NCBI RefSeq assembly: GCF_004078635.1
Contig: NZ_RZNB01000010.1
Coordinates: forward strand, 1-47,454
Source: Labedella phragmitis
GTDB taxonomy: Bacteria; Actinomycetota; Actinomycetes; Actinomycetales; Microbacteriaceae
Reading direction: 5' to 3'
Length of the DNA stretch: 47,454 bases
The position numbers and the translations under genes are program-made. Below, piece after piece: positions 27,799-40,920 of this stretch. Position 1 is the stretch's first letter; each line of letters opens with the position of its first letter. Under the pieces are notes generated by a model that was given only the letters and a program-made list of their open reading frames with translations, did not search any database and was not told where the DNA came from.

Positions 27799-27818
27799 CC
27801 ACATCCAGAAACGACGAA

Positions 27819-27852
27819 GCCCTGGTGAAAGCTGCCTCTCACCAGGGCTTTT
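27819..27852 (+). terminator. Rho-independent terminator at the left island end
   Basis: GCCCTGGTGA (27819-27828) and TCACCAGGGC (27839-27848) followed by TTTT. A near-identical hairpin stands at 40809-40843 beside the intact tRNA-Pro, so it is part of the duplicated attachment region. Confidence 0.8.
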
Positions 27853-27854
27853 CA

Positions 27855-27896
27855 TCGGGATGACAGGATTTGAACCTGCGACCCCTTGACCCCCAG
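27855..27896 (-). pseudogene. Displaced 3' half of tRNA-Pro(GGG), left island end
   Basis: It contains, 5' to 3' on the minus strand, the loop CTGGGGG, anticodon-stem strand TCAAG, the T-arm (GCAGG, TTCAAAT, CCTGT), acceptor strand CATCCCG and discriminator A. The D-arm and 5' acceptor strand are absent. Its acceptor strand pairs with CGGGATG and its anticodon strand with CTTGA, both found in the 5' half at 40966-41011 but not in the intact tRNA. It marks one end of the insertion. Confidence 0.85.
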
Positions 27897-28014: not shown

Positions 28015-28263
28015 AACGGCGAGGTATGGATGCGACCGACGCTATCTAGGGATTTCGCAGAGGTCAACCAACCAAGAACTCCGCGCGCCCTCGGCAGCTG
28101 ACGCTCTCAGAAATGTCGTCCTGCCTCGGAAAGCCGTCGCTGCGCTTCCGCAACTCGCCACCGTGGAATGAGCCTCCTGGAGACACATCAGTGGATGCCC
28201 CCCTGGGGCGGTTCCGGCTGCGATGTGGCTTGGGACGGCGCCAAGTGCGGACAGGACGGCAAC

Positions 28264-28651
28264 CATCGACAACATCCGTGGCATGGCGACGCTGGCAGGC
28301 ATCAGCACCGTGACCGGCAGCGCCGTGAATGCGCAGGAGAACGCGGAAGCCCTTCGAGTCGTGGAGGTGCTGTTGGCCGCAGGCTTCGTCATCGCGGCGG
28401 CACTCGCGGCATGGGGAGCGTCGCTGTGTGTCGCCGTGACCATCGAACAGCGCCGGCGCGACGTCGCCATCTTGCGCACGATACGCATGGACGCATCGGC
28501 CACTCGAAGCCTTATCAGGTCCGAGGCCTGGACCGTCGGCGTGATCGCCTGTGCTCTCGGCATCGTCGTCGGGAGCACAGGCGGCTGGGCGAGCTGGGCG
28601 GTCCTCGCCGGCGTCGTGGGAGGCAGTTACGAGTTTGTACTTGGTCAATGA
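28264..28651 (+). pseudogene. FtsX-like ABC permease, C-terminal remnant
   Basis: The frame contains VTGSAVNAQENAEALRVVEVLLAAGFVIAAALAAWGASLCVAVTIEQRRRDVAILRTIRMDASATRSLIRSEAWTVGVIACALGIVVGS. The EQRRRDVAILRTIxM segment and the two flanking helices are typical of the FtsX/MacB permease C-terminus. The N-terminal part and the ATPase partner are missing, and the end runs into the inverted repeat at 28641. A remnant, not a working gene. Nothing else is supportable in 28015-28263. Confidence 0.6.
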
Positions 28652-28863: not shown

Positions 28864-29898
28864 CTACGGCCGCACGAGCACCTTCAGCGCGGCGCGCGCG
28901 CCCATGAGCCGGTAGCCCTCGCCGGTGTCATCGAGCGGCACCTCGGCGTCGAACACGGCGCCGGCGTCCACGTCTCCGGCGAGCACGCCCGGCAGCAGCT
29001 CGGGGATGTAGCGCCGCGCGGGTGCCAGGCCACCGGTGATCGTCACGTTCGCACCGAACTGTTCGCGGCCGATCGGTCCGGTGGCGTACTGCGGCACGCC
29101 GACGCGGCTCACCGCGCCGCCGGGGCGCACCATCGCCATCGCTTGCGCGAACGCCGGAGCGTGGCCGACGGCCTCGAGCACGACGTGCACGCCGTCTCCC
29201 CCGGTCATTTCGCGCACGGCCGCCACCGCCTCGTCGCCGCGCGTGGGCACGACATCCGTCGCCCCCCACCGACGGCCGAGTGCGAGCCGCGACTCGTGAT
29301 GGCCGAGCAGGATCACCCTCTCGGCCCCGAATCGAGCGGCGGACAGGGCTGCGAACAGTCCGACCGCACCATCGCCGATCACCGCGACCGTCGACCCGGG
29401 TAGCACGCCTCCGGTACGCGCCGCGTGATATCCCGTGCCGTACACGTCGCTCAGGGTGAGCAGCGCCGGAATCCGCTCGTCGTCCTCGCTGACATCGACC
29501 GGCACGAGCGTGCCGTCGGCCAGCGGCACCCGCACCGCCTCGGCCTGCGCGCCGCCGATGCCGTCGCGGCCCCAGATGCCGCCGATGCGGCATGAGGTCT
29601 GCAGCCCCTCAAGGCAGAAGTCGCACGCGCCGCACGAGAACATGAATGGCGCGATGACCACCTGCCCCGACCGCACGGTCGCGACGTCCGCGCCGACCGA
29701 CTCGACGACACCGACGAACTCGTGCCCCATCGGCTGGCCGCCGGGCGGCGGTGTCGCCCCGTGGTACGGATGAAGGTCGCTGCCGCAGACGCACGCGCGC
29801 AACACGCGCACGAGGGCGTCGGTGGGTTCGACGAGCCCCGGGTCGGGAGCGTCGATGACCGCGACGTCGCCGGGGCCGAAGAGATAGGTGGCTCGCAT
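28864..29898 (-). CDS. Zinc-dependent alcohol dehydrogenase (MDR family)
   Basis: A 344-aa medium-chain dehydrogenase. Catalytic-zinc residues lie in CVCGSDLHPYHG and GHEFVGVV. The structural-zinc cluster is CGACDFCLEGLQTSC (four Cys). The NAD(P) fold is VAVIGDGAVGLFAALSAARFGAERVIL. The family oxidises alcohols or reduces aldehydes, including formaldehyde-type products. It is the last gene of the island operon, 44 nt after the flavoenzyme stop, and could remove an aldehyde made by that enzyme (inference). Start ATG at 29898. Confidence 0.9.
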   Translation of the reverse strand: MRATYLFGPGDVAVIDAPDPGLVEPTDALVRVLRACVCGSDLHPYHGATPPPGGQPMGHEFVGVVESVGADVATVRSGQVVIAPFMFSCGACDFCLEGLQTSCRIGGIWGRDGIGGAQAEAVRVPLADGTLVPVDVSEDDERIPALLTLSDVYGTGYHAARTGGVLPGSTVAVIGDGAVGLFAALSAARFGAERVILLGHHESRLALGRRWGATDVVPTRGDEAVAAVREMTGGDGVHVVLEAVGHAPAFAQAMAMVRPGGAVSRVGVPQYATGPIGREQFGANVTITGGLAPARRYIPELLPGVLAGDVDAGAVFDAEVPLDDTGEGYRLMGARAALKVLVRP

Positions 29899-29942
29899 GA
29901 ATGTCCGTCCTCGATGCAGCTCGGATGAAGCTCAGAAGCAGC

Positions 29943-31106
29943 TCAACGGGCACCCGCGCCAGTCAGCACTGGATGCGCCGCCGCCCGGAACCCCGGGTTG
30001 TACAGCGCGTGGCCCCCGTCGAGGGCGAGCGCCGCCGCCATCTCGCCAATGATGGGCGCGAACTTGAACCCGTGACCCGAGAACGCGGTCGCGGTCACGA
30101 TGCGCCCATCGTGGGTCACGTCGATGATCGGCACCTTGGTCTCTGTGTACAGGTCGGGGTGCACGCTGTAGCGCACCGGCTCCGGATGCAGATCCGGCAG
30201 GAACCATGCTGCGTTGCGACCGATGGTGCTGAGCAGCGCCGGGTCGGGGCGCCATTCGAGCTGATCGGCGCCGGCGGCGGCCGGCAGTATCCGTCCGGGC
30301 GACACCTTGACGGTGTAGCCGTCTACGCTCGGCGCACCGAAGAAGTGCACGTCGCCGCGGTCGCGTATAAACGTGGGGAAGGATGCCGCGGCGAATGCGT
30401 CGAGCGACGCGCGCGGCGCGAACCAGGTCAGCAGCACCGAGCGCACCTCGGTGCGTGCGGCGATCTCGGGGTCGAGGCGCGATGCCCATGCCCCCGCGGT
30501 GACGATCGCCCGCCGCGCGGTGAAGCTGCGAGCGCTGGTCTCGACCCGCACCCGATCGGTGCTAACCGGCGAGACGTCGACGACCTCTTCGCCGGATGCG
30601 ACCTGCGCACCCGTAGCCACCGCGGCTCCGACCGCTTCGAGCACGGCCCGCTCGGGGCGCAGCGCTCCCCCGAGGTGGTCGAGCACCGCGATGTCGTCGT
30701 CGTCGAGGGCGTGCTGCGGGTACCGCTCGCGTGCCTCGGCCGTGGTGAGCACGTCGTGCGGCAGCCCGTGCGCGGTGACGCTCGAAAGCACGTTGCGCAT
30801 CGCGGCGGTGTCGGGCCGGCCGATGCTGAGCGTGCCCACCGGCAGCAGCACGGGCGTCCCTGCGCGCTCCTCGAGCTCGAACCACAGCTCGCGCGCCCGC
30901 AGCAGCATCGGCACGTACGAGGCGCCCTCGTGGTACGCGGTGCGAAACAGCCGGGACTCGCCGGCGAATGCCCCGTAGGGATGGCCGATGCCGTACTGTT
31001 CGACGCCGATCACCGAGAGCCCGGGGCGCTGGCTCAGCCGCCACAGCGCCATCGAACCCATCGTGCCGAGGCCGATAACGGCCACGTCGTAGTCAGGGAT
31101 GTTCAT
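29943..31106 (-). CDS. Sarcosine-oxidase-like FAD-dependent amine oxidase (MSOX/SolA family)
   Basis: A 387-aa flavoprotein. The N-terminus has DVAVIGLGTMGSMALWRLSQRPGLSVIGVEQ, then GHPYGAFAGESRLFRTAYHEG, and near the end SGHGFKFAPIIGEMAAAL, all close to monomeric sarcosine oxidase and N-methyltryptophan oxidase. Lys267 (YTVKVSP) fits the oxygen-activating Lys. The Cys that binds FAD covalently in MSOX (CxYT) is Asp318 here (PDLYTET), so flavin binding is probably non-covalent. The family oxidises N-methyl or cyclic secondary amino acids. ATG at 31106, 10 nt after the cyclodeaminase-family stop. Confidence 0.9.
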   Translation of the reverse strand: MNIPDYDVAVIGLGTMGSMALWRLSQRPGLSVIGVEQYGIGHPYGAFAGESRLFRTAYHEGASYVPMLLRARELWFELEERAGTPVLLPVGTLSIGRPDTAAMRNVLSSVTAHGLPHDVLTTAEARERYPQHALDDDDIAVLDHLGGALRPERAVLEAVGAAVATGAQVASGEEVVDVSPVSTDRVRVETSARSFTARRAIVTAGAWASRLDPEIAARTEVRSVLLTWFAPRASLDAFAAASFPTFIRDRGDVHFFGAPSVDGYTVKVSPGRILPAAAGADQLEWRPDPALLSTIGRNAAWFLPDLHPEPVRYSVHPDLYTETKVPIIDVTHDGRIVTATAFSGHGFKFAPIIGEMAAALALDGGHALYNPGFRAAAHPVLTGAGAR

Positions 31107-31116
31107 CTCGGTCCGA

Positions 31117-32247
31117 TCAGGCGAGGAAGGGCTCACGCCAGAAGTTCAGCGGGGTGCCGATTCCCGCGCGCCGGGCGGCGCGGTACACGTGCGCACCCCA
31201 GGCGACGTCCTCGATGGGCAGCCCGCCGAAGCCGAACACGTGGATGCGCTCCTCGTCGGTGCGGCCCGGGCGCGTGCCGGCGACGATCTCGCCGATCTCG
31301 GCGATGTCGGCCACGTCGAGCCGCTCTTCGGCGACGAGGTCCATGAGTTGCATCCCCATGAACCCGAACGACTCGTGCGTGGGGAAGGTGTACCCCTTCG
31401 CCCATGTTTGGAAGATTCCCCGGCTGTCGAGCACGGCGTGAGCACGCTCGGTGAGGAATTCCGCATCCAGCCGCACGTTCGCCGGCAGGCTCACGAACGC
31501 GCCCGGCTTGAGCCAGCGCTCGTCGAGATACGGGTAGTTCGCGCTTCCGGCGGGGCTGACGGTGGCGACGCTGACGATGTCGGCGTTCGCGACGGCATCC
31601 GAGACGCTGTTGGCCACCGACACGTCGAGCTGCGGATGCCTCGCCCGCACGCTCGCGAGGTAGCGCTCGAGGCTGGCGGCGGCGCGGCCGACTACCCGCA
31701 CGCGCTCGAGCCCGGGGCGCACCGCGACGAACGCGTCGAGCGAGGTGCTGTTCATCGCGCCGGGCCCGATGATCGCGACCTCCCGGGCGTTGGCGGCGGC
31801 GAGGTACCGCGCCCCCACGCCGGGAACGGCCGCCGTGCGGTACGCGCTCACCAGGTTCCCCGCCATGACAGCGACGGGCGCGCCCGTGTCGGGGTCGTTG
31901 AGCACGATCGTGTGGATCGACCGCGGCAGTCCGACCTCCTTGTTCGCGACGTTGGATCCGTACCACTTCACTCCGGTGAAGTGCACGTCGCCGCCGAGGT
32001 AGGCGGGCATGGCGGCGAACCGCCGATCGGGGCCGGCCACCGGCATCCGCGGGAACGGCGTCTCGGCGGGAAAGGTGAGGTTGATCCCCTGCGCGTTGGC
32101 CTGAGGCCCCGAGAGCCGGTAGTCGCCGACGGCGAACAGCCGCAGCGTCTCGGCCATCACGTCGATACAGGCGGCGATGTCGGTCACACCGGCGGCCACG
32201 GTGTCGGGCTCGCTGAGAAAGAGCAGGTCGATGCGGGTGTCGCTCAC
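31117..32247 (-). CDS. Ornithine cyclodeaminase/mu-crystallin-family oxidoreductase
   Basis: A 376-aa NAD(P)-binding protein: GVKWYGSNVANKEVGLPRSIHTIVLNDPDTGAPVAVMAGNLVSAYRTAAVPGVGARYLAAANAREVAIIGPGAMNSTSLDAFV. RTAAV and the GPGAMN Rossmann loop are family marks. Members cyclise ornithine to proline, or reduce or form ketimines, N-alkyl amino acids and alanine. The GTG at 32247 has an excellent AAAGGAG upstream. The context (amino-acid transporter, amine oxidase) suggests imino or N-alkyl amino-acid chemistry. The exact reaction cannot be read. Confidence 0.88.
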   Translation of the reverse strand: MSDTRIDLLFLSEPDTVAAGVTDIAACIDVMAETLRLFAVGDYRLSGPQANAQGINLTFPAETPFPRMPVAGPDRRFAAMPAYLGGDVHFTGVKWYGSNVANKEVGLPRSIHTIVLNDPDTGAPVAVMAGNLVSAYRTAAVPGVGARYLAAANAREVAIIGPGAMNSTSLDAFVAVRPGLERVRVVGRAAASLERYLASVRARHPQLDVSVANSVSDAVANADIVSVATVSPAGSANYPYLDERWLKPGAFVSLPANVRLDAEFLTERAHAVLDSRGIFQTWAKGYTFPTHESFGFMGMQLMDLVAEERLDVADIAEIGEIVAGTRPGRTDEERIHVFGFGGLPIEDVAWGAHVYRAARRAGIGTPLNFWREPFLA

Positions 32248-32341
32248 GAGCGACTCCTTTCCAGGGGTCGAAGGACGGATGCCGCGGCACGGCATGGTGC
32301 GGCATGCCGGCCGTGACGCGACGGCCGGCACACCGAGCGGG

Positions 32342-33202
32342 TCAGAGCAGGTTGGGTTCGCCGGGCTCGGTCGCGTCGACCGGGTAGTCGTACTTCTCGG
32401 CGATCTCGGCGAGTTCGCCCGAGGAACGAATCTCGGCGATGTCGTCGTTGATGGCCTCCACCAGCGCCTCGTTCGACTGGTTGACCGGGAAGTTCGTCTG
32501 CCCGATGTCCACGGTCGCCGGGATGCGCTCGTCGGCCTGGATCGGCATGATGCTGGCGCCGTCGACCGGATGCAGGTTGAGCTGCTCGACCGCGGCACCC
32601 AGCCCCATGATGACGCCGTCGACGCGGCCCGCCTGGAAGTCGGCCATCGCGGCGTCGCCCGACGGGTAGGTCTTGAGGTTGTCGCCAAGCAGCTCCGCGA
32701 GGTTCTCGGCGTTGGTGAGGCCCTGACCGACGCCGATGGTCATCGCGGCGATCTCGTCGGCGGTGTCGGCGCCGGTGGTCGAGATGAGCGACAGCGGAGA
32801 GGTGACGACGGGGTCGCTGAGCAGCACGACCTCCTCGCGCGCGGCGGTGCGGTACCAGGAGCCGAGCGTGGTGTCGGCGCGGCCGTTCTGCACCGAGGTG
32901 ATCATCGCGGCCGACTCGCCGGGCACGACCTCGATCGTGAGGCACTCCATCTCGGCGATGCGGGTCATCACGTCGCCCTCGACCCCGGTCAGCTCGCCGT
33001 CCTCGTAGATCGAGAACGGCGCGTAGGGGTACTGCGCGACGGTGAGCACGCCCTCAGTGATGGTGGTCACGTCGGGGTGCGCGGGTGTACAGGACGCGTC
33101 GGGCGCGGAGGTAGAGGATGCCTCCTCGGTGCCGGAACATCCGGCGAGCACGGCGGCGGCGGTGACGAGGAGCACGGGGGTGAGAAGGTATGGGGTTCTC
33201 AT
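32342..33202 (-). CDS. Amino-acid ABC transporter lipoprotein binding protein (SBP family 3)
   Basis: A 286-aa lipoprotein: signal peptide with lipobox VLAGC (Cys22), then SBP_bac_3 landmarks GVLTVAQYPYAPFSIYEDGELTGVEGDVMTRIAEMECLTIEV, GRADTTLGSWYRTAAREEVVLLSDPVV and DFQAGRVDGVIMG. It delivers a polar amino acid or derivative to the two permeases. 94 nt separate it from the cyclodeaminase-family gene. The upstream 60-nt gap contains a short GGGTGT-type repeat. Confidence 0.9.
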   Translation of the reverse strand: MRTPYLLTPVLLVTAAAVLAGCSGTEEASSTSAPDASCTPAHPDVTTITEGVLTVAQYPYAPFSIYEDGELTGVEGDVMTRIAEMECLTIEVVPGESAAMITSVQNGRADTTLGSWYRTAAREEVVLLSDPVVTSPLSLISTTGADTADEIAAMTIGVGQGLTNAENLAELLGDNLKTYPSGDAAMADFQAGRVDGVIMGLGAAVEQLNLHPVDGASIMPIQADERIPATVDIGQTNFPVNQSNEALVEAINDDIAEIRSSGELAEIAEKYDYPVDATEPGEPNLL

Positions 33203-33262
33203 GGGATTTCTCCGAACTGTGAGGAGTGAGGTGAGTGGTGCGGGTGTGGGTGTGGGTGTGGG

Positions 33263-34009
33263 TCAGGATTCGGCGCTGACCGGCACGGATCCGGCCGGGC
33301 GGCGTAGGACGGTCTTGCGCACCGTCATCACGCCGCCGAGTCGCTTCGCCAGCCGGTCGGCGTAGAGCGAGACGGGAACGGTGATCGCGAGGTAGATCAC
33401 GGCCGCCGCCATGAACACGGACATGTAGCGGAAGTAGATCGAGCCTTCAAGGTTGGCGATGTGCATGATCTCCTCGACCGTGATGACAGTGGCGAGCGAG
33501 GTCGCGTGAAACATCGTGATGCCCAGGTTGACCAGTGGCGGGATCGAGACGCGCAGCGCCTGCGGCAGCACGATCAACCGGTACATGTCGGTGCGGTTCA
33601 TGCTCAGCGCGTAGGCCGCGTCGAACTGTCCGCGCGGCACGGCACCGAGCCCGGTTCGGATGATCTCGGCCGAGTAGGCCGCCGACGACCACACCAGCGC
33701 GACGCTGGCCGACAGGAACGCGTCGAAGAGGATGCCGACCGAGGGCAGCCCCCGGTACACGAGCAGCAGCAGCACGAGGATGGGAAGGCCGCGGCCGACC
33801 TCGACCACCACGATCGCGAACCAGCGCGCGAGCGCCGACCGGGTCTCGGTCAAAAGGGCGAGCCCGAAGCCGAGCGGGTAGCCGACGCCGACGCTGACCA
33901 GCGTCAGCAGCAGCGCCGTGCCCAAGCCCGGAAGGAGGGTGGGGATCCACTGATACCAGTCCCAGAGCCAGGACAACGGCGCGGGTGTGGTCGGAAGGAA
34001 TGAGCTCAT
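33263..34009 (-). CDS. Amino-acid ABC transporter permease (HisM/GlnP type)
   Basis: A 248-aa permease of the His/Glu/Gln/Arg/opine family: LLPGLGTALLLTLVSVGVGYPLGFGLALL, GRGLPILVLLLLVYRGLPSVG and the EAA loop EIIRTGLGAVPRGQFDAAYALSMNRTDMYRLIVLPQALRVSIPPLVN. Start ATG at 34009 overlaps the upstream permease stop (ATGA). Forms the channel with that protein. Confidence 0.93.
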   Translation of the reverse strand: MSSFLPTTPAPLSWLWDWYQWIPTLLPGLGTALLLTLVSVGVGYPLGFGLALLTETRSALARWFAIVVVEVGRGLPILVLLLLVYRGLPSVGILFDAFLSASVALVWSSAAYSAEIIRTGLGAVPRGQFDAAYALSMNRTDMYRLIVLPQALRVSIPPLVNLGITMFHATSLATVITVEEIMHIANLEGSIYFRYMSVFMAAAVIYLAITVPVSLYADRLAKRLGGVMTVRKTVLRRPAGSVPVSAES

Positions 34010-34650
34010 AGGACCGCATACCTCCGAGTGAGCCGAACGTGGATGACGCGCGAGACCACGCCGAGCGGGATGCTGAGGGCGAGATAGATCAGACCCGCGA
34101 ACAGGAACAGCTCGAGGCCGTGTCCGAGCGACTGTACTTCGAGCCCGGTGACGTAGACGATCTCGGGCACGCCGATGATCGACGCCAGCGCCGAGTCTTT
34201 GAGCAGGCCCACGATGTAGGTGGCGGTTGTCGGGCTGACCGCGCGGAACAGCTGGGGGAAGATGATGTCCTTCGCGAGGCTCCACCGACCCAGACTCAGC
34301 GCCCAGCCGGCTTCGTACTGGCCCTGCCGGATCGCGGCGAGCCCGCCGCGATAGATCTCGGCCATGGTGGCGATCGCGATGATCCCGAGGGTGAGGACGG
34401 CGCTGGCCAGCGCCGGCAGCACGATGCCGAGCTCGGCGAGGCCGAAGAACGCGATGAACAGCCAGACCAGAGCGGGCACGCCGCGCACGACGTGCACGAA
34501 CACGGTGTAGATGCCGCGCAGGATCGCCGACCGGCTCTGCGCGAGCAGCACGAGCGGTGCGCCGAGCACGATGCCGATGAGCGCCGCGCTCACGGTGAGC
34601 AAGAGTGTCGCGCCGGTCGCGGCGGCGATGAGCAGGAACGCCTCGGCCAT
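34006..34650 (-). CDS. Amino-acid ABC transporter permease (HisQ/GlnP type)
   Basis: A 214-aa permease: ATGATLLLTVSAALIGIVLGAPLVLL, HVVRGVPALVWLFIAFFGL and the EAA loop EIYRGGLAAIRQGQYEAGWALSLGRWSLAKDIIFPQLFRAVSPT. The start overlaps the ATPase stop by one base (TGATG). Partner of the 248-aa permease. Confidence 0.93.
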   Translation of the reverse strand: MAEAFLLIAAATGATLLLTVSAALIGIVLGAPLVLLAQSRSAILRGIYTVFVHVVRGVPALVWLFIAFFGLAELGIVLPALASAVLTLGIIAIATMAEIYRGGLAAIRQGQYEAGWALSLGRWSLAKDIIFPQLFRAVSPTTATYIVGLLKDSALASIIGVPEIVYVTGLEVQSLGHGLELFLFAGLIYLALSIPLGVVSRVIHVRLTRRYAVL

Positions 34651-35453
34651 CAGCGACCCAGTACCGCAGAGAGGAACCGGCGGGTGCGCTCGTGCTCGGG
34701 CGCGTCGAAGACCTGCGCGGGCGCACCGCGTTCGATGACCGCGCCCTCCACCATGACGCAGGTCCAGTGCGACACATGCCGGGCGAACTCCATCTCGTGG
34801 GTGGCCATCACCATGGTGGTGCCGTCGGCGGCCAGTTCACGCATGACGGCGAGGATCTCGGCCCCGACCTCCGGGTCCAGACCCGAGGTGGGCTCGTCGA
34901 ACAGCATGAGGTCGGGATCCATCGCGAGCGCCCGCGCGATGCCGATGCGCTGCTGCTGACCCCCCGAGCACTGGCTCGGGTACGCATCGGCCTTGGCTGC
35001 GAGGCCCACCCGTTCGAGTTGAGCGAGGGCGCGCGTGCGCGCTTCGTCCTTGGAGCGGCCGAGCACGCGCATCTGGGCGAGCGCGACGTTCTGCACGGCA
35101 CTCAGGTGCGGGAACAGGTTGAACGATTGGAACACCATGCCGGTGTGGCGGCGGATGGCGAGCACGCGCGCCCGCTTGACCGGGGTGCCGTCGAAGGTCA
35201 TCGCAGCATCGCCGACGCGCAACGTCCCGCTGTCAGGTGTCTCGAGCACGTTCAGCAGTCGCAACAGCGTGCTCTTGCCGGCGCCGGAGGGGCCGATGAG
35301 CGAGATCACCTCGCCCTTGGCGATCGAGAGCGAGACGTCGTCGATCGCGCGATGCTCGCCGAAGCGCTTGACGAGATGTTCGGCCTGCACGAACGAGTGA
35401 CCGGAGCTGTGCTCCACCTCGATCGCGCGCGTGTCGGTGTGTACCGGATCCAT
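34650..35453 (-). CDS. Amino-acid ABC transporter ATPase (GlnQ/HisP type)
   Basis: A 267-aa ATPase: HLVKRFGEHRAIDDVSLSIAKGEVISLIGPSGAGKSTLLRLLN (Walker A), Q-loop VFQSFNLFPHLS, signature CSGGQQQRIGIARAL, Walker B LMLFDEPTSGLD and switch ATHEM. The signature has Cys in place of the usual Leu or Val before SGGQ. I prefer the ATG at 35453, since the ATG at 35465 sits directly on the GGAAGG ribosome site. It follows the dipeptidase-like gene closely. Confidence 0.92.
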   Translation of the reverse strand: MDPVHTDTRAIEVEHSSGHSFVQAEHLVKRFGEHRAIDDVSLSIAKGEVISLIGPSGAGKSTLLRLLNVLETPDSGTLRVGDAAMTFDGTPVKRARVLAIRRHTGMVFQSFNLFPHLSAVQNVALAQMRVLGRSKDEARTRALAQLERVGLAAKADAYPSQCSGGQQQRIGIARALAMDPDLMLFDEPTSGLDPEVGAEILAVMRELAADGTTMVMATHEMEFARHVSHWTCVMVEGAVIERGAPAQVFDAPEHERTRRFLSAVLGR

Positions 35454-35470
35454 GCGCTTGTCCATCCTTC

Positions 35471-36454
35471 CTAGCTCCGTGTCGTGCGGTCGAAGAAGCG
35501 CATCCAGTTCTCGCCCATGATCAGCGCGACCTCGTCGTCGCTGAAGCCGTGGTCGCGAAGCGCCTGCTCGATGTGGGGGAAATCCTGCGGCCCGGTGATC
35601 CAGTCGAGCTTGGCTGCGGGGGCGGGATTGTTGCTGCTGCCGGCGCCGTACTGCCGCTCCTTGGCCCAGCGGCCCTGCCGCATCCAGGTGAGGGCGCGTT
35701 CGCCGCCGGTCTGGTCGAAGTCGGTCCCGACTGCGACGTGGTCGATGCCGATGCGGTCGACGGTCCACGCGACCATGTCGGCCCAAGCGGCCGGTGTCGT
35801 GTGTTCGCCGACGATGTTCCGGTAGGTGGCAAGACCGAGGATGCCGTGGTTCGCCTTCAGCGCGTCGAGCACCTCGTCGGGCTTGTTCCGCGCATGCGGA
35901 GCGAGGCTGTACGGGTTCGCGTGGGTGATCGCGACGGGGGCGTCGGAGGCGTCGATGGCGTCGCGGCTGGTGCGGTCTCCCACGTGGGAGAGGTCGACGA
36001 CCATCCCGCACCGGTTCATCTCGGCCACGACCGCGCGCCCGAAGCGCGAGAGCCCCGAGTCGGTGGGCTCGTAGCAGGAGCCGCCGATGTCGGACTGGAT
36101 GTTGTAGGTCAGCTGCCCGACCCTCATCCCCATCTCGGCGAACAGCTCGACGAAGCCCAGCCGATTCTCGAGGAACGAGATGTTCTGACTGCCGAGCACG
36201 ATGGCGGTGCGACCGGATGCGGCGATCTCGCGGATCTCGTCGGAGGTGGTGGCCAGGGCGACGAGGTCGCTGTTGTCCTCGGCCATCCAGCGCCACTTGA
36301 CGATCTTGTCCATCGTCTCGACCGCGCCCTCGTACCAGGCGAGGGTCGAGATGAAGCCGCCCACGCCGCCCTCACGCAGCTTCAGCAGGGCCGGGCGCTG
36401 GTCGGGCACGTCCCACTCGAACGGGGAGCAGTTCAATCCATCGAAATAGAGCAT
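35471..36454 (-). CDS. M19 dipeptidase-like protein with altered metal site
   Basis: A 327-aa protein of the membrane-dipeptidase (M19) fold: LTYNIQSDIGGSCYEPTDSGLSRFGRAVVAEMNRCGMVVDLSHVGDRT, APVAITHANPYSLAPHARNKPDEVLDAL, HVAVGTDFDQTGGE. In true M19 enzymes zinc is held by the N-terminal H-x-D, a Glu and two His. Here H-x-D is Leu7-Asn-Cys9 (FDGLNCS) and the Glu position appears to be Gln90 (GSQN); His157 and His178 remain. I recall the same pattern in a M19 subgroup found next to dimethylglycine-catabolism genes. So it may not be a dipeptidase. ATG at 36454, 10 nt after the upstream stop. Confidence 0.85.
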   Translation of the reverse strand: MLYFDGLNCSPFEWDVPDQRPALLKLREGGVGGFISTLAWYEGAVETMDKIVKWRWMAEDNSDLVALATTSDEIREIAASGRTAIVLGSQNISFLENRLGFVELFAEMGMRVGQLTYNIQSDIGGSCYEPTDSGLSRFGRAVVAEMNRCGMVVDLSHVGDRTSRDAIDASDAPVAITHANPYSLAPHARNKPDEVLDALKANHGILGLATYRNIVGEHTTPAAWADMVAWTVDRIGIDHVAVGTDFDQTGGERALTWMRQGRWAKERQYGAGSSNNPAPAAKLDWITGPQDFPHIEQALRDHGFSDDEVALIMGENWMRFFDRTTRS

Positions 36455-36464
36455 GTGGGGGGCC

Positions 36465-39011
36465 TCACTGGGCGCGGCCGGTGGCCGCGAAGAAGTCGGA
36501 CTGGTTGTCGCTGTCGTCGGGGTCTTCCAGCCCCATGAGCTCCTCGATCTCGAACTGGCTCGTGATCTGCTGGCCGGGCTTGTGGAAGTCCTTGATCGTG
36601 GTGCCGGTGTGCTGGCGCGACAAATCGCTGTCGGGGTACATCCCGGCGTGCGCCGGGAAGTACACGCGCCACCACGAGCGCGCCGGCAGCGGGATGCCGT
36701 CGCGGATGAACGCTTCGAGCGCGGCGGCGTACCCGCCGTCACCGGCGCCTTTGTCGCGGCGGATGCGCAGCACCACCGTGCCGTCATCGTCGACGTCGGC
36801 CTCGGCGGCGACGCCGAGGCGGGCGAGCCCGAGAATCAGTCCGGGCAGTGCGCTGTCGTGCTGCAGGTCGGTGAGCGTGACCTCGGCCGGTTTGTCGGCG
36901 GCTAGTGCGCCGAGCAGGCTGAGCAGCACGTGGCCGAGCACGAGCAGGCTCTGCCCGCCGCCGTCGACGGTGGTCGCCGCATCCGTGCGGTTGGTCGTCG
37001 GTGCGCTCCAGTGGGAGGTCGATCCGGCCTCAGTCACCACCCCGGCGAGCAGGTCGCCGAAGGCGTCGACGGCGGCGGGGTCGGCCAGCAGCGCCGTGAC
37101 GAAGAAGTCGCGGGCGGCATGCCAAGAGCCTGCCGGCAGGTTGAGCGCCTGCATGGCGCGACCCGCGACCAGGCGGGCCTCGCGGTACTTGAGCACGAGA
37201 TGCTCGCCCGCCGGGAACTCTGGTGCCACGAGCAGGGTCTCGCTCGGCTTGATCTCGATGACCGGCGGCGCCGTTGGGATGTCGGCGAGCGCGTCGAGGA
37301 CGGGGGCGGGCGTCGTCTGGCGGCGCACCCACCACCAGGCCGAGGCATCCGCCGTGGCAAGTTCTTCCCGGTAGGGCGCACCCTCGAAGATGAGGCCGCG
37401 GATGACGCGGTTGAGGTAGTCCTCGGTGCGGTCGAGCCCGTGCACAAAGGAGTTCATGAGGCGCACGACCCAGGCCGGCACGAAGTCTGTGTCGTGCGGG
37501 TCGGCGTGTGGCACCGCGTAGGGGGCGTCGGCGAGCGAGAGCACGAGCTCGGTGATCTGCATCAGGTCGGGCCGCTCGCTCAGCAGGAACCCCAGAGGTT
37601 CGTCGGCGGGGCGCTCGGTCAGCAGTGCGCGCAGCGCCCGGAGCGCGCCGGGGTAGTCGGCAATCACCTCGTGGGCTCCGGGCACCTCCTCGCGCGGCCC
37701 GGAGCGGGGCTCTTCGGCGGCGCGGGACTGGTACCAGACGCGGTCACGGTTCCGCTCGTCGTTCAGCGGGAGCTCGAGCGCCCAGCCGAAGCGCGTGTCA
37801 ATCAGCTCGGCGACCCGCGCGACGGGCAGGGCCGGATCCAACGTGAGCGTTTCGTCGAACACGAGCTTCTCGGCGACGAGGCGGTCGCAGTACTCGGGGA
37901 TCAGCTCGAGCAGCAGCGAGTTCAGCGACGCTTCGGCGTCGGGGCTCACCCGGCCGCGGATGTAGCGGTGCACGGCGGCCAGCGGGGTCTCATCGCCGTC
38001 GGTGACGATGTCGCCGCGGCGGGCGGCGCGCACGACGGTGCGGATGCGGCGCAGATCCGCCGCGTGTTCGCGGGCGCCGGTAAACACGCGGTACTGCGTC
38101 GTCTCGGTGGCGCGGTATGCGATGGCGCGGTCGATGAGCTCTTCGAGGCGGTCGAAGCGCGCGTCGCCTGGGGCGATGGGCGCGGTGAGCACGTGCTCCA
38201 GCGCCTCGAGGTAGGCGAGGGCGTACGCGTTAATGAGCAGCGGGCGGTTGTAGACGAACATGACCAACCCCAGCGCCGACCCGTTGCCCACGCCGATGGC
38301 CCGCTTGGATTCGATCGACAGGCGCACCGCCCCGGCGGGGTTGTCGAGTCGCGCGAGTTCCTGCACGAGGTCGACGGCGAGTTCGCGCATGAGGTAGGCG
38401 GCGAGCATCTGGGCGAAGTACGAGGTGGCGAGCGGGTGGCCGGCGGGGATCGCCTTGAAGCTGGTGGTGCCGAAGGTGCCGTTGCCGTCGAGGCCGGTGT
38501 TGCGCATGAGGTAGCCGACCTTACGGATGGCGGCGAGGTCGGGCTGACGGCCGTCGGCGAGGGATCGGCGCACGTGCTCGAAGATGCGCAACGACTGGTT
38601 GGAGCGGAACCAGACGAGGGTGCCGACCGGTGCGCGACCCTCGTAGAGCTTGTCGATCTCGGTCTCGGTGGCGTGCACCTGAGCATCGTCGGCGATGCCG
38701 TCGATGAGCGAGCCGATCATGTCCCAGCTGGTGCCGATGATGCGCGAGGTGCGGTTGCCGCCGGCGGGCTCGCGCAGGAACGCGAGGAAGGTGACGGCGC
38801 CCTGCGGGGTGATGACGGTGTAGCGAGCGCGGCCGTTGCCCGCGCGGTCGACCTCGAGCTGGTCCTGTTCGATGCGCCATCCGTCGCGCACCATGGTTGC
38901 GATGAACGCGCGGGAGGCGCTGAGCCGGGTCGGCTGCAGCGCGCCGAGGCGGCGGGGGTCCATGAAGCGATCGGGGTCTGCGATCTCAGCGATGGCGGGG
39001 AAAGTTCGCAT
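36465..39011 (-). CDS. 848-aa protein of unknown family, first gene of the island operon
   Basis: Begins at the ATG at 39011 (MRTFPAIAEIADPDRFMDPRRL), preceded by GAAAGG 9 nt upstream. No signal peptide or TM helix is visible, so it is cytoplasmic. Noticeable segments: VRDGWRIEQDQLEVDRAGNGRARYTVITPQG (beta-rich N-terminal domain), GYLMRNTGLDGNGTFGTTSF, SIESKRAIGVGNGSALGLVMFVYNRPLLINAYALAYLEALE, FVPAWVVRLMNSFVHGLDRTEDYLNRVIRG, and a C-terminal end WWRVYFPAHAGMYPDSDLSRQHTG followed by an acidic tail. I recognise no nucleotide-binding, metal or flavin motif. Its place at the head of an amino-acid catabolic operon suggests a large enzyme acting on the imported compound. Confidence 0.85.
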   Translation of the reverse strand: MRTFPAIAEIADPDRFMDPRRLGALQPTRLSASRAFIATMVRDGWRIEQDQLEVDRAGNGRARYTVITPQGAVTFLAFLREPAGGNRTSRIIGTSWDMIGSLIDGIADDAQVHATETEIDKLYEGRAPVGTLVWFRSNQSLRIFEHVRRSLADGRQPDLAAIRKVGYLMRNTGLDGNGTFGTTSFKAIPAGHPLATSYFAQMLAAYLMRELAVDLVQELARLDNPAGAVRLSIESKRAIGVGNGSALGLVMFVYNRPLLINAYALAYLEALEHVLTAPIAPGDARFDRLEELIDRAIAYRATETTQYRVFTGAREHAADLRRIRTVVRAARRGDIVTDGDETPLAAVHRYIRGRVSPDAEASLNSLLLELIPEYCDRLVAEKLVFDETLTLDPALPVARVAELIDTRFGWALELPLNDERNRDRVWYQSRAAEEPRSGPREEVPGAHEVIADYPGALRALRALLTERPADEPLGFLLSERPDLMQITELVLSLADAPYAVPHADPHDTDFVPAWVVRLMNSFVHGLDRTEDYLNRVIRGLIFEGAPYREELATADASAWWWVRRQTTPAPVLDALADIPTAPPVIEIKPSETLLVAPEFPAGEHLVLKYREARLVAGRAMQALNLPAGSWHAARDFFVTALLADPAAVDAFGDLLAGVVTEAGSTSHWSAPTTNRTDAATTVDGGGQSLLVLGHVLLSLLGALAADKPAEVTLTDLQHDSALPGLILGLARLGVAAEADVDDDGTVVLRIRRDKGAGDGGYAAALEAFIRDGIPLPARSWWRVYFPAHAGMYPDSDLSRQHTGTTIKDFHKPGQQITSQFEIEELMGLEDPDDSDNQSDFFAATGRAQ

Positions 39012-39028
39012 GGTGCAGGGCCTTTCAT

Positions 39029-39068
39029 CGTCAAACAGTGTTTGACGGGCATATGCTATTGTTTGACA
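39029..39068. promoter_or_regulatory. IclR operator region of the island operon
   Basis: CGTCAAACA-G-TGTTTGACG (39029-39047) is a perfect 9-bp-armed palindrome. TGTTTGACA at 39060-39068 repeats one half-site 22 bp further on. The region lies between the divergent 848-aa and IclR genes and so could control both. Confidence 0.65.
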
Positions 39069-39182
39069 CACACCACCATACGAAGCTGCTGATCGCCAGA
39101 ACATGCCCGAAACCGCCTTTTCACGGCAAAGTTACATACGCGAAACACGCAGACGACATCGGCCGAAGAAGGAGACGCGACG

Positions 39183-39890
39183 ATGGCCGGAACGCCGATC
39201 CTGCAGACAGCACTGAAAACGATCGAGGTCTTGGAGGTCTTGAGCCGCTTTGGCGCGCAGCCCGCGTCCCTGGGGAGCATTGCCGAGGCACTGGGCTGGA
39301 GCCGTGCGGCGACGCACCAGTATCTGACGAGCCTCAGCCGAACCGGGTGGGTGGAGCAGGATCAGGAGCGCCGGTACCGTCCGGGCAGCGGCGCGGTGCT
39401 GTTCGCCCGGTCGATCGTCGAGCTCGACTTCCTGCCACATCCGATCACCGACGCGATGGACGAGCTCGTCGACGTGCTAAAGGAGCCGATCTCGTTCGCG
39501 GTGCTGCACGGCGAGGAGGCGGTGATCATCGAGCGGCGCGAGCCCCGGCGCTCGCTGATCCATCGCAACCCGGAGCGCTACCTCTCTCTCGTGTCCGCAT
39601 CGGGGCAGGTGTTACTGGCCTACGACCGGCGGGCGCAGGCGCTACGGACGCCCCAGCACGAGCAACTCATCGCCGAGGTCGAGCGCACCGGGCACGGCGA
39701 GGTGCGCAACAAGTCGTGGATGGGCGATGACGTCGAAGCGATCGCCGTGCCCGTGATGCGCGGCGACTGGTGCCTCGGGGCGCTCAGCGTGATCGCACCT
39801 GCCGGGCGGATGTCGCTCCCCGACGCCGCGGCCGAGCTCAAGAGTTCCGCGGCCCGCATCGAGCAGGCGCTCACCGACCCCACCCCTTGA
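39183..39890 (+). CDS. IclR-family regulator of the island operon
   Basis: A 235-aa regulator: winged helix QTALKTIEVLEVLSRFGAQPASLGSIAEALGWSRAATHQYLTSLSRTGWVEQDQERRYRPGSGAVL, then the IclR effector domain with LVSASGQVLLAY and VEAIAVPVMRGDWCLGALSVIAPAGR. AAGGAGACGCGACG precedes the ATG. Divergent from the catabolic operon and probably its substrate-responsive regulator. IclR proteins may activate or repress; which applies here is not readable. Confidence 0.9.
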   Translation: MAGTPILQTALKTIEVLEVLSRFGAQPASLGSIAEALGWSRAATHQYLTSLSRTGWVEQDQERRYRPGSGAVLFARSIVELDFLPHPITDAMDELVDVLKEPISFAVLHGEEAVIIERREPRRSLIHRNPERYLSLVSASGQVLLAYDRRAQALRTPQHEQLIAEVERTGHGEVRNKSWMGDDVEAIAVPVMRGDWCLGALSVIAPAGRMSLPDAAAELKSSAARIEQALTDPTP

Positions 39891-39932: not shown

Positions 39933-40691
39933 TTGGTGCTGATCAACCCCGCCAAGAACCGCGCCAAGCGGAGCCTGAACCGCAACACCTTCCGCGGACA
40001 GTCGGCCGAGCAGTCCTCCCCGCGGGCGCACGCAATCCCGGACATGAAGACCCTCAACCGGCTCGCCAGGGCGTGCGGCAAGGTGCACCAGTCCTACAGC
40101 GACTTCGTGATGCTCGCCGCCCTGCTCGCCGCACGGTCCTCGGAGGTGTCCGGGCTCCAGGTCGGGGACGTTGAGTTCGGCAAGAACCTCGTCGCGATCC
40201 GGCGGCAGGTCTTCCCCGGCAAGGGCGGCTTGGTGACCAAGCCGACCAAGAGCCGCAAAGAGCGCCGGGTGCCGATCCTGGAACCTCTCCGTCCGGTATT
40301 GGAACGCCTCACCGCAGGCAAGCAGCCAGACGATTCCCTGCTGGTCGGCCCGAAAGGCGGTTACCTCACCACCGCGACCGTCCGCGACGCCACCAACTGG
40401 GACGGCATCGTCGCGAAGCTCGGACTGCCCGACCTCACCCGACATGGCCTTCGCCACACTGGGGCCACCTGGATGGCCGACGCCGGCATCCCGCTGCACG
40501 TCCTCCAAGACATCCTCGGCCACGCCTCGATGGAAACCACCCGCGGCTACCTCCACCCCGACGACCGCCACCTCGCCTCCGCCGCCGAGCAGGCCAACGC
40601 CTTCCTCTCCGCGGCCGGCCAGCGGCCAGGAGCCTGTGATGCGTTCCGAGGTCGAGGGAATGCTGTCGGAAGCGTTCTGGTCCCCTTTTAG
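39933..40691 (+). pseudogene. Tyrosine integrase, catalytic domain only (5' truncated)
   Basis: About 250 residues of a phage-type tyrosine recombinase. All catalytic residues are present in order: Arg68 (ARSSEVSGL), Lys106 (KPTKSRK), His171-x-x-Arg174 (RHGLRHTG), His197 (LGHAS), Tyr206 (TTRGYLH). The arm-binding and core-binding N-terminal domains (usually about 130-150 residues) are missing; sequence upstream of VLINPAKNRAKR does not continue the protein. It stands next to the tRNA-Pro it presumably used as target. An internal start might yield a catalytic fragment, but it should not recombine alone. Confidence 0.85.
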
Positions 40692-40781: not shown

Positions 40782-40808
40782 CAGAAGACGACCCTTGGAC
40801 ACGGTGAA

Positions 40809-40843
40809 GCCCCGGTGAGAAACCTACTCTCACCAGGGCTTTT
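40809..40843. terminator. Hairpin beside the intact tRNA-Pro
   Basis: GCCC-C-GGTGAGA and TCTCACC-A-GGGC with one mismatch around a short loop, then TTTT on the plus strand. It can end integrase-direction transcription and probably also processing of the tRNA from the other side. Duplicate of the element at 27819-27852. Confidence 0.7.
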
Positions 40844-40846
40844 ACG

Positions 40847-40920
40847 TCGGGCTGACAGGATTTGAACCTGCGACCCCCTGACCCCCAGTCAGGTGCGCTA
40901 CCAAGCTGCGCCACAGCCCG
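40847..40920 (-). tRNA. tRNA-Pro (anticodon GGG)
   Basis: A complete 74-nt cloverleaf. Acceptor CGGGCTG pairs with CAGCCCG, discriminator A, no encoded CCA. D-arm has GCGC/GCGC around AGCTTGGTA. Anticodon stem CCTGA/TCAGG holds loop CTGGGGG, with GGG at 40884-40886. T-arm is GCAGG-TTCAAAT-CCTGT. It reads CCC and CCU. It remains intact beside the island and the integrase fragment. Confidence 0.93.

Follow-up and report, generated by a model that had tools for sequence, protein, structure and literature searches.

The window, a stretch of 47,454 nucleotides from Labedella phragmitis (Microbacteriaceae; contig NZ_RZNB01000010.1), carries on its minus strand an operon of nine genes (39011->28864) whose lead gene encodes an 848-residue protein that matches no family. 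This protein is two proteins fused, called A and B here, and A, B and an atypical protein of the M19 family form a recurrent core. Around that core the window's operon adds an ABC importer, an enzyme of the OCD/mu-crystallin family (OCD), a DAO-family amine oxidase of the MTOX/MSOX type (MTOX) and a zinc-type alcohol dehydrogenase (ADH); an IclR-type regulator gene diverges from it. Our tentative reading of the whole is a catabolic cassette, carried on an island, for a small nitrogen-containing carboxylate that is N-methylated, cyclic or both. As a single candidate we favour homarine (N-methylpicolinate) or something closely related to it, and we would give this reading somewhat less than even chances.

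The lead protein is a fusion

Searches with the 848-residue sequence returned nothing from Pfam at E<=0.1, from NCBIfam at 0.01 or from the sequences of the PDB at E<=10. A 12-row profile of its family did not match the PDB either, and the best Pfam match of 12 family members scanned singly was only 0.022. The original prediction, that the protein has no recognised family, agrees with these results; its treatment as a single family does not survive. In a scan of 72,556 plasmid protein records 168 matched the query and none covered 80% of it; among the matches listed (20 of the 168), all end between residues 561 and 583. Since, in addition, a second open reading frame (ORF) follows A in relatives, the protein is a fusion of A (its first ~565 residues) with B (its last ~250). 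Twenty-nine loci, namely the window, L015-L037 and L101-L105, were compared by hidden Markov models; they are not independent (L027, L028 and L030 are all Sinorhizobium, and L019 and L020 are two similar Streptomyces). Of the 28 loci other than the window's, 27 keep A and B as separate genes; the two are fused only in the window and in Sediminivirga (L015), whose fusion, 61% identical to the window's, is the nearest relative of its A.

An alignment of 29 A rows (which takes in L006 and L007 and leaves out L028 and L037) has 49 residues identical in at least 28 rows, with many Arg, Gly, Trp and Asp among them, and it is because of these near-invariant residues that A looks like an enzyme. The AlphaFold model of A from the L019 relative has a mean pLDDT of 83.4 and a pTM of 0.87. 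Foldseek returned for it 96 PDB matches at E<=10 (none at E<=0.001; the best 0.29) and 168 BFVD matches, again none at E<=0.001, so that the unknown fold of A means one absent from the PDB and BFVD at this Foldseek sensitivity. Kinase-like matches (IRE1, N-acetylhexosamine kinase) were rejected at a TM score of about 0.1. A model of all 848 residues was set aside as too weak (pLDDT 69, pTM 0.61), and a mixed alignment of A and B (A3) was excluded because it placed B onto A. A viral scan for A (29 stretches) gave no relative.

The profile and structure searches that had been proposed for the lead protein give no significant fold match for A and bring B close to DUF3726. Compared by hhalign with an alignment of eight DUF3726 proteins, those that follow A in the LysR-type sister clade described below, B matched with a probability of 95.5% and E 1.6e-8 over 198 columns, in an alignment running to a C-terminal S-R motif; against a local Ldh alignment the values were 0.6% and 0.097. 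For this reason B is, as judged from profiles, a distant relative of DUF3726. Its descent from Ldh_2 is possible: a Pfam scan of 15 B rows found Ldh_2 in five (best 3.3e-7) and DUF3726, weakly (0.098), in one, and in the weak full-length model the B region resembles Ldh_2 structures weakly (Foldseek E>1). The window's own B has no Pfam match to either family. B lies downstream of A in all loci, and directly so except in L016. A literature search on DUF3726 found no paper.

The lead protein is sparsely distributed. It is 100% identical in Labedella populi (contig NZ_RZNC01000010.1), and a same-genus genome shares 19.9 kb of the region at 99.8%; it occurs in 2 of 99 related genomes and, by profile search, in 6 of 394 actinomycete genomes (the window's own counted in both). 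Such a patchy spread fits lateral transfer. The A gene of one actinomycete (L005/L012, G225) is broken over two frames, suggesting decay or sequencing error. An A gene is also present on pSymB of S. meliloti 1021 (NC_003078.1, 397153-398808), a laboratory strain open to genetic work. The S. meliloti tags SMb20284 and SMb20383-20388 were guesses that the accessible parts of PMC3484140 and PMC4960864 do not tie to the cluster, and they play no part here.

A recurrent core with an atypical M19 protein

A and B are present in 29 of 29 loci and M19 in 28, missing only from L025, a 10-kb contig. A, B and M19 together are thus a recurrent core, found in actinomycetes, rhizobia, roseobacters, Variovorax and Pseudomonas; A and B are also present in a Chloroflexi bin. 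The IclR gene adjoins A in 19 loci, and in Tamaricihabitans (L016, 9953-14138) it lies between A and B, not ahead of A. A tree separates the IclR-type loci from a LysR-type clade (L032-L036, L101, L102 and L104), to which L037, which is not in the tree, is added here by its same gene content, making nine LysR-type loci in all. The A of the window is about 27-37% identical to the A proteins of that clade over aligned parts.

What surrounds the core varies, most visibly in transport. The window and L015 share an ABC importer of the polar-amino-acid type (58-71% identity between them); Bosea, Sinorhizobium, Ensifer, Alloyangia and Neorhizobium have an ABC transporter with a PotABCD-like layout (by layout and annotation), several actinomycetes an MFS or NMT1-type transporter (by eye), and Variovorax a TTT-type binding protein. 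The nine genes had been put forward as one set, with random variation of the lead protein's neighbours between genomes as the sign against this; the comparison divides the operon, with A, B and M19 conserved, some transporter recurring with them, and the tail genes varying.

The operon was rightly said to hold an M19-like protein, as the match to PF01244 shows (cut-off 26 bits; see the table), but the canonical metal ligands of a dipeptidase are missing. Seven canonical genomic M19 proteins all align with DGHND and EG. In the 20 aligned cluster members (18 of alignment A5, with L006 and L007) the His is replaced by Leu, the Asp by Cys, Tyr, Ile, Met or Asn, and the Glu by Gln without exception, while the two later His, the Arg and the Asp remain in place. 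A wider check, in which the HxD region did not align, shows Gln where the Glu would be in every one of the 28 core loci that carry M19. In renal dipeptidase the three replaced residues are metal ligands, and their replacement makes the label 'dipeptidase' doubtful. The nearest PDB entry, 2i5g (4.9e-51), from P. aeruginosa, has the same Leu and Gln replacements. Related genomes also hold a third M19 type (L054-L058), with HxH rather than HxD and with the Glu retained; it was counted in neither group. In Neorhizobium galegae (L105, 11377-12410) the M19 coding sequence runs across two frames.

According to the accessible part of PMC12093977, genes for a predicted dipeptidase (pepD) and for a hypothetical protein stand before dgcAB in both P. 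aeruginosa and V. natriegens. That dipeptidase may belong to the cluster subgroup of M19, which would be a point in favour of the N-methyl reading. A literature search on PA5396 found no paper.

The LysR-type sister loci and a possible link to homarine

The gene content of the LysR-type loci points to the breakdown of N-methylated heterocycles, homarine for example. An aldehyde dehydrogenase (ALDH) is present in all nine (E<=1e-188) and Ldh in six. A betaine-type transporter, ProVWX/OpuAC or BCCT, lies in or near the operon in seven of the eight that are annotated (L037 carries no annotation), Phaeobacter being the one without. A SoxA-like alpha subunit is found in three of the nine (Shinella, Ruegeria TM1040 and Aliiroseovarius) and in none of the other 20 loci; in these three a helix-turn-helix or GlxA-type regulator lies, by annotation, between the SoxA-like gene and the operon, its AraC domain having been tested in L101 only (Ruegeria TM1040 megaplasmid, 396121-403693). 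According to the accessible part of a 2026 paper (PMC13390433), the AraC-type tmaR likewise adjoins mgdABCD in R. pomeroyi, and Mgd has been reported to take part in the catabolism of homarine. The ALDH of the two loci tested scored best on models of the alpha-ketoglutarate-semialdehyde or 2,5-dioxovalerate type, below cut-off; an ALDH of this kind would fit a pathway with a C5 product, for instance N-methylglutamate. A catabolic pathway for homarine has reportedly been described by Ferrer-Gonzalez et al. in Nat Microbiol in 2026. The operon name homABCDER, reportedly used for homarine catabolism, has as many gene letters as the fullest sister operons have regulators (one) and enzymes (five).

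A scheme consistent with the gene content of the sister clade would have A-B open the ring, a one-carbon piece be removed with the help of M19, and the resulting C5 aldehyde be oxidised; Ldh would then reduce an imine to N-methylglutamate, which Mgd would demethylate. Two leads from Phaeobacter were dropped: the pipecolate oxidase on its 262-kb plasmid, as far as PMC5653290 describes it in its accessible part, lies outside the region viewed, and the accessible part of PMC11306105, on methylated compounds in Phaeobacter, names none of these genes.

The OCD, MTOX and ADH genes of the window

The last three genes of the window's operon are not part of the core. A homologue of the ADH is found in one other locus (L023). 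Sediminivirga carries both OCD and MTOX (49% and 50% identity), paired in the window's order but away from its A-B locus, and this speaks for a functional tie. Among 296 actinomycete genomes OCD was found at E<=1e-60 in three (the window's own counted) and an MTOX homologue in 17; in two Microbacteriaceae genomes the gene after OCD encodes a DAO protein that shares 29-30% identity with MTOX. OCD search matches include two Klebsiella pneumoniae plasmids. The window's operon has no Rid gene, and the FAD partner of its OCD is the DAO-family MTOX. The MTOX stretch that aligns with the Cys region of 7exs and MSOX, YSVHPDLYTET, contains no Cys; in solved sarcosine oxidases the Cys of that region is the covalent FAD link. 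A FAD oxidoreductase that follows the ABC genes in Alloyangia is of the FAD_binding_4 family, not DAO, and offers no true parallel to MTOX. 'Tyramine oxidase subunit B', the name of the model that the window's OCD matches, yielded no paper in a literature search.

Operon layout, regulator site and island

The nine genes are packed on one strand, as had been described from the sequence, their spacing varying between an overlap of 4 bp and a gap of 94 bp, figures that depend on the start codons we chose. The divergent IclR gene was also rightly described as facing them across a palindrome with 9-bp arms. This palindrome sits 17 bp ahead of the A-B gene, and a further half site lies at 39060-39067. 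When the bases of the intergenic stretch were shuffled 1000 times, a palindrome with arms of at least 9 bp (gap <=6) appeared in 6 of the shuffles, but 43 of 1000 random window stretches of equal length held one: the operon's palindrome is unusual, not extreme. In the two other divergent IclR-A gaps checked a comparable palindrome is missing (best arm 7 in L015, none in L031).

Features of the operon and its surroundings in the window
Feature	Position	Strand	Remarks
A-B fusion gene, 848 aa	36465-39011	-	first in operon; no family match
Part A, residues 1 to ~565	37317-39011	-	unknown fold; conserved RNTGLDGNGTFGT stretch, W96-D97, many Arg
Part B, residues ~601-848	36468-37211	-	DUF3726-like; possible distant Ldh_2 resemblance
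M19-family protein	35471-36454	-	PF01244, 245.5 bits; without HxD and Glu metal ligands
ABC ATPase, polar amino-acid type	34650-35465	-	best models EhuA, TcyN and GlnQ, each under equivalog cut-off
ABC permease, His/Glu/Gln/Arg/opine type	34006-34650	-	TIGR01726, 71.5 bits (cut-off 42.2)
Second ABC permease, His/Glu/Gln/Arg/opine type	33263-34009	-	TIGR01726, 71.1 bits (cut-off 42.2)
Solute-binding protein, SBP_bac_3	32342-33202	-	PF00497, 1.1e-24; lipoprotein-like start judged by eye
OCD/mu-crystallin family enzyme	31117-32247	-	NF004848 'tyramine oxidase subunit B', 472.7 bits (cut-off 362)
DAO-family amine oxidase, MTOX/MSOX type	29943-31106	-	NF008425 (N-methyl-L-tryptophan oxidase), 276.4 bits (cut-off 257)
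Zinc-type alcohol dehydrogenase (ADH)	28864-29898	-	PF00107/PF08240; nearest PDB entry 4cpd, 1.5e-53
IclR-type regulator, divergent	39183-39890	+	PF09339, 3.5e-11; PF01614
Palindrome, candidate regulator site	39029-39047		arms CGTCAAACA-G-TGTTTGACG
Left attachment-like repeat with tRNA-Pro fragment	27808-27896		repeat comparison
Right attachment-like repeat overlapping tRNA-Pro (40846-40920)	40798-40888		repeat comparison
Phage-integrase ORF, possibly truncated	39933-40691	+	PF00589, 1.3e-24, residues 42-212; tRNA end of island

The description of the region as an island is likewise supported. A direct repeat of ~90 bp (best stretch 62 bp, 93.5% identical), which includes part of tRNA-Pro, encloses 13 kb holding the operon, the IclR gene, the integrase ORF and ~1 kb downstream of the ADH gene. 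With direct repeats at tRNA-Pro and an integrase ORF, the cassette looks like a 13-kb integrative island. A clean empty site was not found in the two same-genus genomes checked: in these, tRNA-Pro and part of the right flank lie ~1 kb apart and the left flank matches elsewhere or weakly. With no contiguous left flank in those genomes, what lies to the left of 27808 may be a further insertion. Downstream of the ADH gene, at 28223-28651, is what by eye resembles part of a gene for a membrane permease.

A tentative pathway and its rivals

If the cassette does serve the catabolism of homarine or a similar compound, its steps might run as follows. The IclR protein would regulate the operon at the palindrome, and the polar-amino-acid-type importer would take the compound up. 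The fused A and B would work together as a single bipartite enzyme which, along with the atypical M19 protein, attacks the ring or the first product. OCD would make an N-methyl (or cyclic) amino acid by reducing an imine, MTOX would remove the methyl group or oxidise the C-N bond, and ADH would clear an aldehyde. The substrate, the order of these steps, the reaction of A-B-M19 and the regulator site are all presumptive. A more specific form of the proposal makes A-B-M19 one enzyme, with A as a new fold, that opens or dearomatises an N-heterocyclic carboxylate and has no recognised cofactor motif, the window's fused version, with OCD as imine reductase and MTOX as demethylase, representing a terrestrial actinobacterial branch; this we consider rather unlikely.

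The original prediction, breakdown of an N-methylated, betaine-derived or cyclic amino acid, is supported in so far as such a chemistry could suit the family matches of OCD and MTOX, both over cut-off, and the betaine transporters of the sister loci; for every member of the cluster the substrate is a presumed one. Several observations weigh against the homarine-type reading. That the LysR-type operon is the published homarine operon is itself something we infer. Sox/Mgd-like genes were not found in six of the nine LysR-type loci, and since the L101 alpha subunit exceeds the NCBI cut-off for sarcosine oxidase (1356 against 1164), Sox and Mgd are not told apart. The window's operon has neither a SoxA-like alpha subunit, MTOX being there instead, nor an ALDH. 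The diversity of transporters in the IclR-type loci may mean different substrates, and the rhizobial loci have an aminotransferase, a succinate-semialdehyde dehydrogenase (SSADH) and RidA instead. Homologues of OCD and MTOX lie beside A in none of the 28 other loci examined, and among seven other A-carrying genomes a close OCD exists only in Sediminivirga, with weak matches (8e-29 or worse) in four and none in two. OCD, moreover, forms with Rid and a FAD-binding oxidoreductase a compact module, lacking A, in all five plasmid regions viewed (L039-L043), accompanied in four of them by an APC permease.

The absence of OCD and MTOX beside A elsewhere and the free-standing OCD module also speak for a composite operon, in which A-B-M19 and the importer would be a pathway for some unrelated compound and OCD-MTOX-ADH a separate, co-transcribed amine-oxidase module; the OCD-DAO pairs of the two Microbacteriaceae genomes and the separation of both gene sets in Sediminivirga point the same way. 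The tight one-strand spacing in the window argues against such a composite, as does the presence of OCD-MTOX both in the window and in the nearest relative of its A, rare as OCD is, and we judge it somewhat unlikely. It is clearly unlikely, in our view, that the compound, instead of being of the pyridine type, is a betaine that is linear or derived from proline (such as the betaines of proline and hydroxyproline, or one like carnitine). The Pseudomonas MPC6 cluster does have as neighbours BCCT transporters, FAD oxidoreductases, two enzymes of the MLE family and the alpha subunit of a ring-hydroxylating, Rieske-type oxygenase, and oxidases of the MTOX type take N-methyl and cyclic amino acids as substrates; yet in the other annotated regions viewed no Rieske oxygenase alpha subunit is marked next to A, and the type of ALDH and the Sox/Mgd linkage fit a C5 N-methylglutamate route better. 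Hydrolysis of a lactam or hydantoin-type ring to an omega-amino acid similar to gamma-aminobutyric acid would account for rhizobial loci with a class III aminotransferase, SSADH and two RidA, for GabT and SSADH genes near A in Alloyangia, and for the hydantoinase/oxoprolinase A/B-like genes (by eye) that lie upstream of the cluster and diverge from it in Pseudonocardia (L022, 4650-9109). Such genes are missing, however, from the window's operon and from the LysR-type operons viewed, and the M19 protein is without its canonical hydrolytic metal site; we consider this explanation very improbable.

Three vague annotations (hypothetical A, B/DUF3726 and an atypical M19) become one testable unit that is shared between phyla. 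For the cluster M19 subgroup, the name 'membrane dipeptidase' may mislead on function. The natural A-B fusion offers a structural target for a protein without a known fold. If the homarine-type link is true, the pathway would extend to plant- and soil-associated actinobacteria.

Comparison with known systems

The cluster M19 protein is of the same family as the membrane dipeptidases 3id7 and 1itq and the amidohydrolase 2i5g, and it shares Leu and Gln with the latter; it differs from the canonical membrane dipeptidases in the replacement of their HxD and Glu in every aligned member. B resembles DUF3726 (PF12525) in its profile match and in occupying the same slot downstream of A, and differs in that the window's version makes no direct Pfam match. 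With the NF004848 'tyramine oxidase subunit B' modules the window has in common an OCD that exceeds the cut-off; unlike them, it has MTOX in place of the usual Rid and FAD-binding oxidoreductase, and no APC permease.

The LysR-type operons, tentatively linked to homarine, differ from the window's, which has an IclR regulator, a fused A-B, a polar-amino-acid ABC importer, and OCD, MTOX and ADH in place of Ldh, Mgd and ALDH. As compared with the homarine pathway itself, six of the nine LysR-type relatives have a regulator and five enzymes (ALDH, M19, A, DUF3726 and Ldh), and three have genes like those of Sox/Mgd, the latter reported in homarine catabolism. Judging by gene content, OCD may stand in for the Ldh of these sister clusters, and MTOX for their Mgd.

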